Positions 8,164 through 33,241 of a stretch of DNA of 40,910 bases are shown here, in pieces. How positions within the stretch are numbered: position 1 is the first letter of the stretch; each line of letters opens with the position of its first letter. The stretch is taken from positions 1 through 40,910 of the forward strand of contig JAJBBF010000101.1 in assembly GCA_020532215.1 (NCBI GenBank). Reading direction: 5' to 3'. The DNA comes from Candidatus Cloacimonadota bacterium. GTDB taxonomy: Bacteria > Cloacimonadota > Cloacimonadia > Cloacimonadales > Cloacimonadaceae. The notes below the pieces were generated by a model. The model did not search any database. It saw only the letters and a program-made list of their open reading frames with translations, and had not been told where the DNA came from. Both the position numbers and the translations under genes were made by a program.

Positions 8164-9519
8164 ATGCTGCGTTTCGAGCATTTCAACCTTTTGCATTCTG
8201 ATGCCCTGCCCACAGCCATCCCCGCCGCCAAGGTGAAGGATTATTACTACGCTTGTATGCAAGCCCACGAAGCGATCCAGGCAGATCGCCACGCGAACAT
8301 CCTCGGTTTTTACGACTTGCCGGAATCCGACCTTCGCCCCATCGAGGACTTCGTGGCCAGCATCGATCCCCGCTTCGACACTCTGGTGGTGCTGGGCATC
8401 GGTGGATCCGCCCTCGGCAACCGGGCCCTGTATTGCGCGCTCAAAACGGAGCAAGAACTGCCCCGCCGCCTCTTTGTCTTCGACAACGTCGATCCCGTCT
8501 TCCTCCACGAGATCCTGGCCCAGATCGACCTGGACACCACCCTCTTCAATATCATCACCAAAAGCGGAACCACCGCCGAAACCATGGCCGGATACATGAT
8601 CCTGGCCGATCTGATCCGTAAACGCTTCCCCGCGGATTACACCCGGCGGCTCATTATCACCACCGACCGCGAGAAAGGTTTCCTGCGCCAGGTGATCAAA
8701 AACGAGGGCTATCCCTCCTTTGTGGTGCCGGACAACGTCGGCGGCCGCTTCTCTGTGCTCACCGACGTCGGCCTGCTCTCCTCGGCTTTCGCCGGGATCA
8801 ACATCCGCGAACTCCTCAGCGGAGCGGCCTCCATGCGCGGCCGCTGTGAAAACTTGGATACCCTGGCCAATCCCGCCTACCTGAACGGCCTGCTCCACTA
8901 TCTCTATATGCGCGAAGGCAAAAACATCTCGGTGATGATGCCCTATTCCAACTCCCTTTACGACCTTGCGGACTGGTATCGCCAGCTCTGGGCCGAATCT
9001 TTGGGCAAACGCCACGACGTCAAAGGCCGCGAGGTTCTGGTGGGCCAGACCCCAGTCAAAGCGCTGGGCACCACGGACCAGCATTCCCAGGTGCAGCTCT
9101 ACACCGAGGGTCCCAACGACAAGGTCTTCACCTTCCTCACGGTGGAAAACTTCGCCCACGATTTCACCATCCCCAACCTCCATCCCGACCGTGGGGAGGT
9201 CAGCTACCTCGGCGGACGCAAACTCTCGGAACTGCTCAACGCAGAACGCCTCGCCACCGAGATCGCCCTCACCCAGGCCCACCGTCCCAACTGCAATCTT
9301 GTTTTCCCCGCCCTCGACGAATTCCATTTGGGCGAGTTCATCATGATGTACGAGATCCAAACCGTCTTCACCGGCAAGCTGTTGCACATTGATCCCCTGA
9401 ACCAGCCTGGAGTGGAGGCCGGCAAGATCGCCACCTACGCCCTTATGGGCAAAGCCGGCTTCGACAAAGAACGCGAAGAGATCCGGCAGTACCTGGATCG
9501 GCGGAAACAGCAAAGCTGA
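8164..9519 (+). CDS. pgi: Glucose-6-phosphate isomerase
   Basis: Interconverts glucose-6-phosphate and fructose-6-phosphate in the cytoplasm. Diagnostic segments are VVLGIGGSALGNRAL, NIITKSGTTAETMAGY (SIS sugar-phosphate site), VVPDNVGGRFSVLTDVGLLS, LTVENFAHDFTIPN and the C-terminal signature LHIDPLNQPGVEAGK. At 451 residues it is the shorter bacterial form common in firmicutes and Thermotoga, not the about 550-residue E. coli type. AAGGAG at 8152-8157, overlapping the ptsI stop, sets the ATG. Being last in the hprK-ptsH-ptsI run links the phosphorelay to glycolysis or gluconeogenesis. The last 73 nt of the gene recur in diverged form at 10460-10532, after the next gene. Confidence 0.95.
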   Translation: MLRFEHFNLLHSDALPTAIPAAKVKDYYYACMQAHEAIQADRHANILGFYDLPESDLRPIEDFVASIDPRFDTLVVLGIGGSALGNRALYCALKTEQELPRRLFVFDNVDPVFLHEILAQIDLDTTLFNIITKSGTTAETMAGYMILADLIRKRFPADYTRRLIITTDREKGFLRQVIKNEGYPSFVVPDNVGGRFSVLTDVGLLSSAFAGINIRELLSGAASMRGRCENLDTLANPAYLNGLLHYLYMREGKNISVMMPYSNSLYDLADWYRQLWAESLGKRHDVKGREVLVGQTPVKALGTTDQHSQVQLYTEGPNDKVFTFLTVENFAHDFTIPNLHPDRGEVSYLGGRKLSELLNAERLATEIALTQAHRPNCNLVFPALDEFHLGEFIMMYEIQTVFTGKLLHIDPLNQPGVEAGKIATYALMGKAGFDKEREEIRQYLDRRKQQS

Positions 9520-9628
9520 ACAGGTGTTGGAGTCCCTTTAACAGCCACCCGGCCACAACCGGCGACAGAAAGATCCTTCCCAGATGCAGAAGTAAAAAGG
9601 TCGATGGCACAAAGAAAGGTACTCAAGC

Positions 9629-10459
9629 ATGAAATCAAAGCTCGTAATCGTAGAAGGGCTCCCAGGTTCGGGAAAAACAACCTGGGCGTCCTCTATTCAC
9701 AATCTGCTGCGCGAGAGAGGACTGCCCGCACAACTCTACCCAGAGGGTGATCCCCGCCATCCCGCCGATTACGAAGCCACTGCCTGGATGCCCCGGCGTA
9801 CTTTTCGGCAAATCCGATCCCAATACCCGGATCATCAGGAAATCCTCAATAGGTTTGCCCTGCCCTCCGGCAATCATATTATCCTGCCCTACGGACAGCT
9901 ATCTCGCGAAATGGGAAAATCCTGTCCCGAAGAACTGGTACAAAAACTCGCCAGTCACGACATTTATGAAATTCCCCTCGAGCGGCATATGTCTCTGGTA
10001 ACGGAGCGTTGGAGGCAATTTACCCAAACCCCAAGGCGTCATCCATTGATCTTTGAGTGCTGTCTGATCCAGAATCCCGTCACTGTTACCATGCTCCGCG
10101 ACAACGCCCCCAAACAGCGGATCATCGATTACGTCCTGACACTTTGTGAAATCATCCGTCCGCTTGATCCGGTCATTTTGTATCTTGATCCATCTGATCT
10201 CGAAGAGCGCTTTCGCCGGGTCTTTGAGGAACGTCCGGAGCGGTGGCAGCGAATGTTCGTCTCCTACTGCACCCAAAGGGGATATGGGAAAGCCATGGGT
10301 TTGGAGGGTCTGGAGGGAACGCTCGAAGTTATGCTGAAACGACGCGAACTCGAACTGGAGATTCTTCCGTTGACCGGTCTAGCTTATGAAATAATCGATA
10401 ACACTTTACTGGACGAAAAGGATAGAACGCTGCGCATCGATAGAATCCTGAACCTCTAA
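9629..10459 (+). CDS. P-loop kinase-like NTPase of unknown substrate
   Basis: 276 residues beginning MKSKLVIVEGLPGSGKTTWA, a Walker A motif (GLPGSGKTT, 10-18) at the extreme N-terminus as in thymidylate-kinase-like and other small-molecule kinases. Other recognisable stretches are YPEGDPRHPADYEATAWMP, HPLIFECCLIQNPVT, a probable Walker B-like strand PVILYLDPSDLEERF, and RGYGKAMGLEGLEG followed by LKRRELELEIL. This resembles a family of about 270-residue uncharacterised P-loop proteins that I recall mainly from firmicutes; a nucleoside or nucleotide kinase role is only inference. AAGG at 9616-9619 lies 9 nt before the ATG. Codon use looks less C-ending than in the neighbours. The stop codon is followed immediately by a partial copy of the pgi end, so the gene sits in a rearranged, probably acquired, segment. 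Confidence 0.75.
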   Translation: MKSKLVIVEGLPGSGKTTWASSIHNLLRERGLPAQLYPEGDPRHPADYEATAWMPRRTFRQIRSQYPDHQEILNRFALPSGNHIILPYGQLSREMGKSCPEELVQKLASHDIYEIPLERHMSLVTERWRQFTQTPRRHPLIFECCLIQNPVTVTMLRDNAPKQRIIDYVLTLCEIIRPLDPVILYLDPSDLEERFRRVFEERPERWQRMFVSYCTQRGYGKAMGLEGLEGTLEVMLKRRELELEILPLTGLAYEIIDNTLLDEKDRTLRIDRILNL

Positions 10460-10532
10460 GGGCAACGCCGGCTTCGACAAAGAGCGCGAAGAGATACGGC
10501 AGTACTTGGATAGTCGCAAACAGCAGAACTGA
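10460..10532 (+). pseudogene. Diverged copy of the pgi 3' end
   Basis: Bases 10460-10532 align without gaps to pgi 9447-9519 with 64 of 73 identical bases (counted by eye). The reading frame is intact to a TGA: pgi ends GKAGFDKEREEIRQYLDRRKQQS, and this copy would read GNAGFDKEREE then IRQYLDSRKQQN. Five of the eight changed codons are synonymous. Similarity fades out about 35-45 nt past the stop, near an ACCCGGCC shared by both flanks. There is no start codon or upstream pgi sequence, so it is a remnant. Confidence 0.85.
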
Positions 10533-10575
10533 CCAGGGTTTCAAGCCCACTTGACTCAAAACCCGGCCCCAGCCC

Positions 10576-10664
10576 GCCCCTGTTATCATTACGGGATAAA
10601 TACGGGATCAATACGGATGAAATCCGTATTGATCCCGTATTTATCCCGTAATGATAACAGGGGC
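10576..10664. repeat. Long palindrome, copy 1
   Basis: A perfect inverted repeat with 43-bp arms (10576-10618 and 10622-10664) and a 3-nt loop GAA. The inner 71 bp (10585-10655) is identical to the element at 19116-19186. Each arm carries TCCCG-type units at an 11-nt period (TACGGGATAAA, TACGGGATCAA, TACGGAT in the left arm). The outer 9 bp of each arm are unique to this copy yet still self-complementary. It lies between the pgi remnant and the secreted amidotransferase gene. There is no U-run, so it is not a standard terminator. Confidence 0.95.
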
Positions 10665-19115: not shown

Positions 19116-19186
19116 ATCATTACGGGATAAATACGGGATCAATACGGATGAAATCCGTATTGATCCCGTATTTATCCCGTAATGAT
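19116..19186. repeat. Long palindrome, copy 2
   Basis: A perfect inverted repeat, 34-bp arms (19116-19149 and 19153-19186), loop GAA. All 71 bp are identical to the core of the element at 10585-10655. It lies between two convergent transcription units, 13 nt past the stop of the - strand surface-protein gene, where a bidirectional RNA hairpin could act as a transcription or decay barrier. Confidence 0.95.
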
Positions 19187-29123: not shown

Positions 29124-30461
29124 TTAATTCGTGAGAGTGCGGACGCCGAGGAAGATCGTGATCACCTGGGTGGCGATCAGCATGATGTCCTTGAAACGGG
29201 TCCAGGTATCATAAGTGTCATTTTCCGATACGTATACGGTGTCTCCGGGATCGAGGGCCAGCTTTTTGCTGGGCTTCACCCAGTTGCCGCTGGTGGCGCG
29301 GATGATCCTGGTTCCCAGCCAGCGTTTGTTGTTGGTGTAGCCGCCGGCTTGTTGAACGTAGTATTCGTAGTTTTGGCCTTCCACCCAGGGAATCAGGCCG
29401 GGATGGACCACCTGGCCGCTGACCTCCACCATGTCCATGTGCAGCGGTACATAGAGATAATCGCCGTCCCGCAAAACGGGGTTGGCTTCCTCACCCTGGG
29501 ATTCCCAGGTGCGGGAAACGTCGATGCTGTAACGCCCCGGATACTGGCGGATACGGTTCAGCATATAGCGGTATTCCATGGCGGTGAGGTCCGAAACCTC
29601 AAGCTGCATCAGGCGTTCCAGCTCCGGATCGGATTCCTGGGAACTGCCCCGGTTGGCGTATATGGCGCTGCGCAGATTTCCGCGTGAGCTGGGTCCGCCG
29701 CAGCGGACGAGGATCTCATACAGGGTGGTGTTCTCGTCGATGTAATACTCTCCGGGCGCTTTGACATTGCCCTCCACCGTTATCTTCCAGTCCCGGCGGT
29801 GTTCGGTGTCCGCCGTAATGCTGATGCGGTCGTGGGGGCGCAGAACGATGTCCTCCGCTGAGCGTTCCCGCAGATCGATCCGCAAGACCTCAAACTCGGG
29901 TGAATTCTCCCGGTAGCGGTAGATGGATACCGTTTCGCGGTTGGCAGCCAGGGTGAAACCCTGCGCCAGGGCCAGGATATCGGCCAGCCGGTCACCGGGA
30001 ACGTATTCATATTCTCCGGGGAAATAAACCTCGCCGGTGATGGTTACGGAGGTATCCAAAGAAGGCAGCTGGAGCAGGTCCCCGTCTTTGAGCAGGGGGT
30101 TTTGGCTGAGGTCGCCAGTACGGTTGAAACGCAGCAGGTCAAAGGTTTTGGTTTCCCCGCCCCGGGTGAGCCGCACCCTGCGCAGGCCCTGGAAATTTTC
30201 GAACAGCGAATCCCGCTCCGCCTTTCTGGCCTGTTGCGGCGTGAGAAACTGGGTGGCCGTCACAGTCGGGGTTACGCTGCCTGCCACTTTGATGGCATCG
30301 GAGATGCGGCTGAGCGGGCTCATCTGATAGGTTCCGGGGTTGGCCACGAAGCCGGTTACATTCACCGAGATCAGCACCTGATTGGTAAGCTGGGGAATGG
30401 TCTGCGCTGCCATAAGGCAGGTCAGAAACAGCAGCGCGGCGGTCAGCAGCTTAGTTTTCAT
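29124..30461 (-). CDS. SLBB-domain polysaccharide export protein
   Basis: 445 residues with a signal peptide (LLTAALLFLTCLMAA, cut near 19). Four SLBB (beta-grasp) domains are seen, near 32-63 (VTGFVANPGTYQMSP), 138-170 (ITGEVYFPGEYEYVPG), 224-256 (VEGNVKAPGEYYIDE) and 342-375 (VSGQVVHPGLIPWVEG). A hydrophobic C-terminal helix (IMLIATQVITIFLGV, about 423-440) ends the protein. The typical Wza N-terminal PES domain is not recognisable. In the family SLBB proteins line or cap the polysaccharide export channel. The start overlaps the epimerase gene by 11 nt with no clear Shine-Dalgarno, suggesting translational coupling. Confidence 0.82.
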   Translation of the reverse strand: MKTKLLTAALLFLTCLMAAQTIPQLTNQVLISVNVTGFVANPGTYQMSPLSRISDAIKVAGSVTPTVTATQFLTPQQARKAERDSLFENFQGLRRVRLTRGGETKTFDLLRFNRTGDLSQNPLLKDGDLLQLPSLDTSVTITGEVYFPGEYEYVPGDRLADILALAQGFTLAANRETVSIYRYRENSPEFEVLRIDLRERSAEDIVLRPHDRISITADTEHRRDWKITVEGNVKAPGEYYIDENTTLYEILVRCGGPSSRGNLRSAIYANRGSSQESDPELERLMQLEVSDLTAMEYRYMLNRIRQYPGRYSIDVSRTWESQGEEANPVLRDGDYLYVPLHMDMVEVSGQVVHPGLIPWVEGQNYEYYVQQAGGYTNNKRWLGTRIIRATSGNWVKPSKKLALDPGDTVYVSENDTYDTWTRFKDIMLIATQVITIFLGVRTLTN

Positions 30462-31410
30462 AGTAGTCGATCATCCGCTGGATGATGGCATCCAAGTTGT
30501 AGTTGGGTTCGTAACCTATGTACTGATTGATCTTGCCCAGATCGGGCATGCGGTTCATCATATCCTCAAAACCCTCTTCAAAGGCCTCTTCATAGCTCAT
30601 GTGCTCGATGCGGGACTTGCTGCCGCACATGGTTTTCACTTTCTTGGCCAGCTCCTCTATGGAGATGGATTCCGTGGTGCCCACGTTGAAGATCTCGCCC
30701 TGGCATTCGGGAGTGTTCATCAGTTTTATAAAAGCGCCCACAACGTCCGATACATCTGCGAAACAGCGGGTTTGCTTGCCGGAGCCGTACACGATCAGAG
30801 GCTGGTCCAGCAGGGCCGCTTTGATGAATTTGGGCAGCACCATGCCATACTGGCCGGTCTGGCGGGGGCCCACGGTGTTGAAACAGCGCACGATCACCAC
30901 CGGCAGCCGCTTTTCGCGGAAATAGGCCAGGGCCATGAATTCGTCGATGGCCTTGCTGTCGCTGTAACCCCAGCGGCTGATGCGGGTTGACCCCAGCAGG
31001 CGGTCGTCATCCTCGGAGAAAGGCACCTTTTCGCTTTTGCCGTAGATCTCGGAGGTGGAAGTGATCAGCACCTTGGCTTTGTGCTTGTTCGCCAGTTCCA
31101 GAACGTTGTCCGTGCCCACGATGTTCGTCTTGAGCGAAAGCAGGGGGTTTTCGATGATGTATTTCACGCCCACGGCCGCGGCCAGATGGTAAACCTGGTC
31201 TACGCTGGCCAGCAATTTTCCCATCAGTTCGCGGTTCAGGACACTGCCGATCGTATAGTGGAAATTGCCGTTATCCTTGATCGATTCGATGTTTTCCAGG
31301 CGGCCGGTGGAAAGATTGTCGATAATGCTGACTTGGTGTCCTTCTTCCAGCAGCCTTTCCGCCAGATGTGAGCCGATGAAACCGGCCCCGCCGGTGATGA
31401 GAATCTTCAT
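30451..31410 (-). CDS. NAD-dependent nucleotide-sugar epimerase/dehydratase
   Basis: Extended short-chain dehydrogenase of 319 residues acting on nucleotide sugars. The NAD fold TGGAGFIGSH (6-15), STSE (118-121) for the catalytic Ser, and the YSDSK dyad (Y149, K153) are intact. Substrate-side motifs include RCFNTVGPRQTGQYGMVLP. It resembles UDP-glucose 4-epimerases or UDP-glucuronate decarboxylases; the sequence alone does not decide. GGAGAA precedes the ATG. It heads the chain epimerase, SLBB export protein, DegT aminotransferase, so it probably supplies an activated sugar for a surface glycan. Confidence 0.87.
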   Translation of the reverse strand: MKILITGGAGFIGSHLAERLLEEGHQVSIIDNLSTGRLENIESIKDNGNFHYTIGSVLNRELMGKLLASVDQVYHLAAAVGVKYIIENPLLSLKTNIVGTDNVLELANKHKAKVLITSTSEIYGKSEKVPFSEDDDRLLGSTRISRWGYSDSKAIDEFMALAYFREKRLPVVIVRCFNTVGPRQTGQYGMVLPKFIKAALLDQPLIVYGSGKQTRCFADVSDVVGAFIKLMNTPECQGEIFNVGTTESISIEELAKKVKTMCGSKSRIEHMSYEEAFEEGFEDMMNRMPDLGKINQYIGYEPNYNLDAIIQRMIDYYEN

Positions 31411-31497: not shown

Positions 31498-31656
31498 TAG
31501 AAAAGAGGATTTCGCCCTTTTCCGCCACTCATGATACTCAAGCCTGCACCCATTCCCTGTGGCCAAATTTGATGATGACCGCAGCCTCCTGTCCTGAGGA
31601 TGGACAAGGCCAAAACTGTTACTTCGCCCTTAGCCCCAGCCTGTTCACCCCTGATC

Positions 31657-31705
31657 CGCCTCCCGCTTAGTTCCCGCCTCGGATGCGGGAACTAAGCGGG
31701 AGGCG
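31657..31705. repeat. Palindrome, divergent member of the same TCCCG-period family
   Basis: A perfect inverted repeat with 21-bp arms (31657-31677 and 31685-31705) and loop CTCGGAT. Sequence differs from the elements at 10585 and 19116 but shares TCCCG-N6-TCCCG at 11-nt spacing in the arm. It lies 24 nt past the stop of the C45 hydrolase gene. The rest of the gap 31411-31729 holds no gene. Confidence 0.85.
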
Positions 31706-31729
31706 TATGGGATGTGAATGGGATAGGGC

Positions 31730-33241
31730 TCAGGGTGAGATCAGCAGTTTGCGCTGGGAACGGATTCCGGAACGTGATTCCAGGCTGAGCAGATAGACCC
31801 CGGCGGGCAGATGTGCAAGAGAGATCTCAACTTCGGTTTTTCCGGACAAATCGCGCTCAAAAACCTTTTGCCCGCGGATATTGTGCAGAGCGCAAATCTG
31901 GAGGGGTTGCGTGCTTTGCAGCTTCAAAGCCGTGTTCGCTGGGAGCGGATTGGGGTGGCAGGAAAAGCTGAACTGGGCCGCGGGGATGTTTTCATCCGCC
32001 ACGGGGGTGGAAAAATTGAATAAAACCGGGACGGAAAGGGAGATGGCGGGGTTTTGATAGGCGGGAAGGGTTATTGAAGCCCCTGCCCACAAAAGGGTAC
32101 CGGTGGAGGGTGTGTACTGGATGGCCGAAAGATTGGTATCCTGCCCCGCCGCGCCGGACATCAGGCTCCACTGGCGTTTGGCCGTGATGTTGTGATCTGT
32201 ATTCAGCGAATCCTGGATGTTGGCGTAGCGGCTGCAGCAGGAGGGAAAGGTCAGCAGCCGGAAATGGTTGGTGGCGGCCAGGTTTTGTCCCGGCAGATCG
32301 CTGTCGGGATCGTCATAATAGCGCAGGGCTGTGCCCATGTTGTTGTTTTCGATGGCGATCGAGACGGTCTGCCCGGCGCTTTCGCTGAGGGTGTGGATGA
32401 TGGTGCCGGTTAGGTTGTTCCCGGCCTGGATGGCGGCAGCGACGTCCAGGGCGTTGGAAGCTCCGTCCCCATTGTAATCCACCCTTTCCAGGCTCCGGCG
32501 GATGTCGAAGAAAATGGGATCGAGACCGGTTTGGTTGACCACAGAGTGGTCGCTGCCCACGTTCAGGGAGGCCCAGGCCCCGGTTTCGGAGATGGCGGAA
32601 GCCGCTCCCAACCAGCCTGGGACCGTGATGGCAAGCCATTTTTGCTCATCCGGCTCGGAGGGATGGTGAACCACCAGCAGTGGATTGTCGACCAGGCAAT
32701 CGTAGAGGGTCCAGTCCAGCCAGCGCGTGATCACGGAAGATCCGGCCAGCAGAGAATCCTGCTGGGTGGAGATCCCCCAGCTGGCCAGCGAGGCGCAGCC
32801 AAAATCCACATCCTCATCCCCCAGGGTATTGCGCAGGTGCTGGAGATCCAGAAAAGTATTGGCCAGCAAGACATCTTCGTAGGTGATATCGCGCTGTAAA
32901 CCGTTGTGATAAAGGCTCGAACCGGCAGCCCCGACACCGGCGATCAACCCCTGGGCCTCTTCGGCCAGGCGCGGATCGGTTTCAAAATGGTCCTGATAAT
33001 AGTTCCAGAGATAGGCGTAGCGGACGGGGTCCGAAAATACGAACATGGAATAGAAAAAGTCGTCGAATACATCAAGAGTGGGTCCGGCCAGCAGATAACC
33101 CTGGGCATAGCCGCGTTCGTAGTGGCTGCCCCAAACCTGCAGAATGGCTTTGTCGCCGATGTATTGGAGGTCTCCATTCACCTGGGCGGCCAGGGGCACG
33201 GCCAGGATGAAGAGGATCAGTAAAAGATATGTATGTTTCAT
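31730..33241 (-). CDS. Secreted C45-type Ntn hydrolase with C-terminal sorting domain
   Basis: 503 residues with a signal peptide (LLLILFILAVPLAAQ, cut near 19). The central region resembles acyl-CoA:6-APA acyltransferase or C45 peptidases: VWGSHYERGYAQGYLLA (36-52), then DFGCASLASWG with C149 as probable autocatalytic nucleophile, and ITRWLDW (171-177), matching the family's G-C-T-S ... N-W-D-W layout. An EF-hand-like DYNGDGASNALDV occurs in mid-domain. The C-terminal part (from about 423) is a sorting domain: CHPNPLPANTALKL, HNIRGQKVF, LPAGVYLLSLES and RKLLISP. Family members cleave or transfer amide bonds; the substrate is unknown. The ATG overlaps the preceding stop (ATGA). Confidence 0.78.
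   Translation of the reverse strand: MKHTYLLLILFILAVPLAAQVNGDLQYIGDKAILQVWGSHYERGYAQGYLLAGPTLDVFDDFFYSMFVFSDPVRYAYLWNYYQDHFETDPRLAEEAQGLIAGVGAAGSSLYHNGLQRDITYEDVLLANTFLDLQHLRNTLGDEDVDFGCASLASWGISTQQDSLLAGSSVITRWLDWTLYDCLVDNPLLVVHHPSEPDEQKWLAITVPGWLGAASAISETGAWASLNVGSDHSVVNQTGLDPIFFDIRRSLERVDYNGDGASNALDVAAAIQAGNNLTGTIIHTLSESAGQTVSIAIENNNMGTALRYYDDPDSDLPGQNLAATNHFRLLTFPSCCSRYANIQDSLNTDHNITAKRQWSLMSGAAGQDTNLSAIQYTPSTGTLLWAGASITLPAYQNPAISLSVPVLFNFSTPVADENIPAAQFSFSCHPNPLPANTALKLQSTQPLQICALHNIRGQKVFERDLSGKTEVEISLAHLPAGVYLLSLESRSGIRSQRKLLISP

Follow-up and report, generated by a model that had tools for sequence, protein, structure and literature searches.

Palindromes found between bacterial genes, such as REP, ERIC and RPE, are commonly explained as mobile debris or as hairpins at mRNA ends. 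The locus considered here is an exact hairpin at 31657-31705 of the window (the whole stretch of DNA that was analysed, 40,910 nucleotides long), and it raises the question of which kind of element it belongs to, whether it is related to two other palindromes of the same stretch, and whether the short units that recur in its arms are kept as DNA sequence or as structure. The window is contig 5 of a MAG (G000; other genomes are numbered likewise) that is 80% complete and comprises 178 contigs totalling 1.95 Mb; its source is an uncultured Candidatus Cloacimonadota. The reading that we tentatively favour, with a probability of about 0.42, is that the hairpin belongs to an old, vertically kept, ERIC-like family of intergenic palindromes, family B, whose phased 11-bp units would be read by a putative protein. 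No earlier description of such elements was found among the open-access papers that were searched.

The hairpin and the element around it

The hairpin has arms of 21 nt and a loop of 7 nt; its left arm reads TCCCG-CTTAGT-TCCCG at 31661-31676, with the mirror at 31686-31701, and the units start 11 nt apart. The first-pass annotation had reported a perfect hairpin with this spacing, the same as that of TCCCG-TATTTA-TCCCG in the other two palindromes, and in the sequence this is exact. A motif search of the genome drew in diverged copies and revealed that the similarity reaches well past the hairpin: 15 copies align nearly gap-free over 128 nt, mirror-symmetric, with 53 paired columns and with CGCCCTKAGCCC and GGGCTMAGGGCG at their ends. 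The search model for family B was a covariance model, R1, which matches the window element at 31617-31745 on both strands with 118 bits. In an alignment of 67 copies the pairing dies away at a half-length of about 57, which puts the window element at about 31624-31738. The features on which the argument draws are these:

31657 to 31705, no strand assigned: inner perfect hairpin, 21-nt arms and 7-nt loop
31661 to 31676, plus strand: TCCCG-N6-TCCCG of the left arm, two 11-nt units (window sequence)
31686 to 31701, minus strand: TCCCG-N6-TCCCG mirrored in the right arm (window sequence)
about 31624 to 31738, no strand assigned: full family B element, imperfect palindrome of about 115 nt centred on 31681 (R1 match and extent of pairing)
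31730 to 31732, minus strand: TGA stop of the ORF 31730-33241, within the outer arm of the B element (ORF calls)
10576 to 10664, no strand assigned: family A palindrome, a comparison element, 11-nt units of opposite polarity to B
19116 to 19186, no strand assigned: family A palindrome, a comparison element

The hairpin had been placed just past a stop codon. A stop is indeed near, the nearest being the minus-strand TGA at 31730-31732, but the hairpin forms no more than the centre of the palindrome of about 115 nt, which encloses that stop. Both flanking ORFs, 30451-31410 and 31730-33241, run on the minus strand; the terminus of the second, whose stop lies in the element, resembles by eye a putative type IX secretion sorting domain. 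Elsewhere in the window, two direct copies of 99 nt (9444-9542 and 10457-10555, 81% alike) lie over the ends of neighbouring plus-strand ORFs and, judged by position, are a local gene duplication. At gathering thresholds, Rfam gave no match anywhere in the window.

The shared TCCCG might suggest kinship with the palindromes noted at 10585 and 19116, a view that has to be given up. These belong to family A, whose members are perfect palindromes with a 3-nt loop and with arms of three 11-nt units each; this genome carries near-identical copies of them at about 50 places. Followed outward from the loop, the family A unit is TCCCGTATTTA, opposite in polarity to B, where TCCCG runs loopward; the shared motif therefore does not make one family. 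A single family for all three window palindromes was rejected, the polarity of TCCCG being opposite and little being shared beyond it. Species-specific versions of A occur in G003 (unit TTCCGTATTGA), G007 (GTCCGTATTGA), G012 (TTCCGTATTTA) and also G009. At the region orthologous to the window B site, G009 carries a family A element, and G005 (L210) carries variant C with the unit GACCGCGCAAT. A further perfect palindrome, element D, has 40-nt arms and an unrelated 11-nt unit, CTTGATTAAGN; it was seen once, at L227:2035-2117 in G009, near a Y1 gene.

Distribution of family B and its 11-nt period

The R1 search placed family B at about 40 separate sites of this genome, mostly full length, and most copies overlap with no ORF of at least 140 codons. 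The surmise that the hairpin represents a repeat family was thus correct, and the genome scan gave matches far above the expectation from shuffled sequence. R1 matches on both strands, about two per element, number 75 here, at least 110 in G002, at least 112 in G003 and at least 81 in G007; a deeper search of G003 gave at least 146 matches, or at least 73 elements, and G002 holds at least 55 copies. G009 and G012 are likewise rich in B. As a single long imperfect palindrome, the element falls within the 100-130 bp expected of the ERIC kind. The family occurs in 12 of the 31 genomes searched, all within the same taxonomic family. From the rest of the order, 12 genomes belonging to other families gave no R1 match, and neither did G004, G008, G010 and G011 of the same genus. 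Regular chromosomal spacing was not seen, the positions on large G003 contigs being irregular by inspection. Three low-scoring relatives in this genome (L132, L134 and L136), in which the inner stem GATCCCCGC replaces AGTTCCCGC, are possibly a B subfamily. Carriage of either family by viruses was considered and rejected: the family A pattern had no match in IMG/VR, and the B pattern had 11 short matches there, none of which fits the B model.

The hairpin statistics draw on 420 kb of this genome, together with stretches selected around B copies in G003 (391 kb) and G002 (325 kb). Within the 420 kb, TCCCG pairs 11 nt apart number 33, against 1-6 at each other distance from 5 to 25, so that the period proposed for this motif does stand above chance; 29 of these pairs lie in family A, three in family B and one elsewhere. 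The period itself is found again in further B copies, and other palindromes from the genus show it too. Across 67 copies from three genomes, the B arm matches itself best at lag 11, with an identity of 0.54, and next best at lag 22, with 0.44; no other lag from 2 to 26 exceeds 0.38, and shuffled arms give 0.34. Shared ancestry cannot inflate this signal when one consensus is tested at a time, and in that test lag 11 was still best; no more than 0.4% of shuffles gave as high a value at any lag. Positional conservation likewise has its highest autocorrelation at lag 11 in both arms. The units of B thus recur at about one helical turn; in G002 they can be read in a row as CATCCCATTCA CATCCCATTCA CTTCCCGCTGA GTTCCCGC. 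Each of five sequences tested from A, C and D was also best at lag 11, with a value never reached in 500 shuffles.

Positions, concerted change and the rival explanations

Single-flank probes from 16 B loci of G000 located 12 sites in G003, ten of them with B, and seven in G002, five with B. No clean empty site was seen in these two genomes, three of the absences coming without the other flank and one with other repeats. The only B site with both flanks but without B, L296:1750-2300 in G003, is occupied by dispersed repeats of another kind, the GTCATTCCGGGG type. A set of 16 orthologous B pairs was obtained from the G003 and G002 stretches; as these had been picked around B copies, they are biased towards finding shared sites, and the probe test from G000 is less affected. 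The G002 copies are 77% identical among themselves, versus 64% for G000-G002 orthologues, and the CTTAG of G000 copies is CTTTG in nearly all copies of G002. Paralogues and orthologues are about equally alike in G000 and G003, so the concerted effect is clearest in G002. Family B is therefore a dispersed family with an 11-nt period that keeps its positions across species and evolves in concert within a genome, if only weakly in G000 and G003.

In our judgement the main rival to a protein-read site, and a possible one, is that B is the relic of a non-autonomous mobile element (MITE/ERIC-like) whose transposase has been lost or is unrecognised, its positions being old insertions and the likeness of its copies the outcome of re-amplification or gene conversion. 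The family is dispersed, intergenic, palindromic and patchy among congeners, all of which suits such a relic, and the same genomes carry family A, which, with its near-identical copies and species-specific versions, looks recently amplified. Against this, a search for target-site duplications over 67 B copies gave no signal above multiple testing, and such duplication was accordingly rejected for B; the sites are mostly common to species rather than polymorphic, and a clean empty site is wanting. Moreover, re-amplification alone cannot account for genome-specific changes at orthologous sites.

The first-pass annotation had also allowed for a family that evolves through compensatory changes, and this is true only in part, mainly of the inner stem. 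Complementarity of the B arms over 67 copies is 69.0%, versus 68.6% with partners shuffled within each genome (z 0.8); covariation appears mainly in the inner stem, at pairs 12-14 and 16-17 counted from the centre (z 3.2-4.5 at four, 2.7 at the fifth), and at one outer pair, 43. Compensatory evolution of the whole stem was rejected outside the inner stem, the impression given by the window element and its G003 orthologue having failed the shuffle test. Because the complementarity is what column composition leads one to expect, the two arms mainly represent a single conserved sequence that is present twice, in inverted orientation, and a common arm consensus without general covariation suggests that sequence rather than structure is kept. 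The covariation of the inner stem speaks against a reading by sequence only, as structure matters in part, and the inner stem may also be required as a hairpin or cruciform.

This bears on the less likely proposal that B acts as RNA: its long hairpin, formed where transcripts end, would stabilise the mRNA or terminate transcription bidirectionally. The fold of the window B element is very stable (z = -8.7), the inner stem covaries, and convergent gene pairs are over-represented. By simple ORF calls, 63 copies fall into 25 convergent, 25 tandem and 13 divergent gaps, where all gaps of at least 120 bp comprise 69, 138 and 78, a moderate convergent excess of 40% of copies versus 24% of gaps. The expectation that copies cluster at gene ends nevertheless fails as worded, since the 13 copies between divergent genes adjoin no gene end, and these also tell against an RNA role. 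Selection for folding of the transcribed strand would raise G-U pairs above A-C pairs there; at tandem sites G-U pairs are 119 and A-C pairs 101, a small and unconvincing difference. General covariation is not evident, the aligned hairpin has by eye no T-run behind it, and an 11-nt sequence period is unnecessary for a hairpin. An RNA role is judged improbable.

REPINs are tied to a transposase (a RAYT) and consist of two short REP palindromes (20-50 nt, usually with GTAG before them) around a spacer (PMC3116915, PMC8266576). Family B resembles REPIN/BIME in being a dispersed intergenic palindromic repeat with paired inverted parts, but is one continuous hairpin, and it does not depend on a Y1 transposase being present, as G002 (98% complete) gave no Y1_Tnp match despite its B copies. 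No B core lies beside the three Y1_Tnp genes of this genome, and the B arm consensus is, by inspection, C-rich, not self-complementary and without the GTAG tag. Family B fails the REPIN features that were tested, namely a linked Y1 transposase and GTAG-tagged short REPs, and a RAYT/REPIN origin was rejected for it. Downstream of two of this genome's three Y1 genes, at a distance of about 260-330 bp, lies a family A palindrome, and palindromes with 11-nt units lie within about 1 kb of Y1_Tnp genes at L067 and L069 (this genome), L227 (G009), L228 (G007), and L231 and L241 (G003). As most Y1 loci are without an A-like palindrome, this proximity is suggestive only, and a Y1 transposase is a possible mobiliser of family A. 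That A and B are both REP/REPIN-type elements mobilised by the Y1 transposases of these genomes, whether RAYT or IS200-like, is very improbable.

A putative protein-read site and its known counterparts

Returning to the protein-read site, each arm of B is a short tandem array of 11-bp units, the two arms having the same consensus in inverted orientation. A putative protein that sees one helical face would read these units as DNA sequence, and the sequence of each unit would be kept because it is read. Copies within a genome may drift together by tracking the specificity of this reader, by homogenisation through gene conversion, or by both. A protein that reads one DNA face had been proposed at the outset, and such a putative reader fits the data. 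On the other side, several congeners manage without B, and the concerted change is weak in G000 and G003.

The parC centromere of plasmid R1 consists of two blocks of about five 11-bp units bound by a protein on phased helical turns. Its 11-bp units offer an analogy for what B might do; the parC repeats are direct, plasmid-borne and confined to a single locus, whereas the blocks of B are inverted and dispersed over the chromosome. Rickettsia palindromic elements (RPE) are known for their in-frame location inside genes. These palindromes are long, 105-146 bp, and numerous (PMC2229807). In length and multiplicity B is comparable, but it is intergenic.

The ERIC sequences of enterobacteria (also IRU or RU-1) are long imperfect palindromes of 127 bp with tens to hundreds of dispersed intergenic copies and one long stem-loop, and their description includes inverted repeats of 7 bp at the termini, TA ends and duplication of the target site (PMC2229807, PMC2267715). 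By size, copy number and placement, as well as in its single long stem-loop, B is closest to the ERIC kind. It is not ERIC itself, as it has no duplication, its arms are built of 11-nt units, and its copies change in concert at conserved positions.

A broader and rather doubtful view is that the genus carries chromosome-wide intergenic sites made of inverted blocks of phased 11-bp units, which would serve a putative undescribed DNA-binding system. Family A with its variant C, family B and the once-seen D would be parallel versions of such sites, and a change of reader from one species to the next would rewrite their units throughout the genome.

Family B combines conserved places across species, concerted sequence change within a genome and phasing at one helical turn. 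With this combination one can test directly whether such a family is a relic, an RNA hairpin or a DNA site read by a protein, and this in a phylum where genetics hardly exists.
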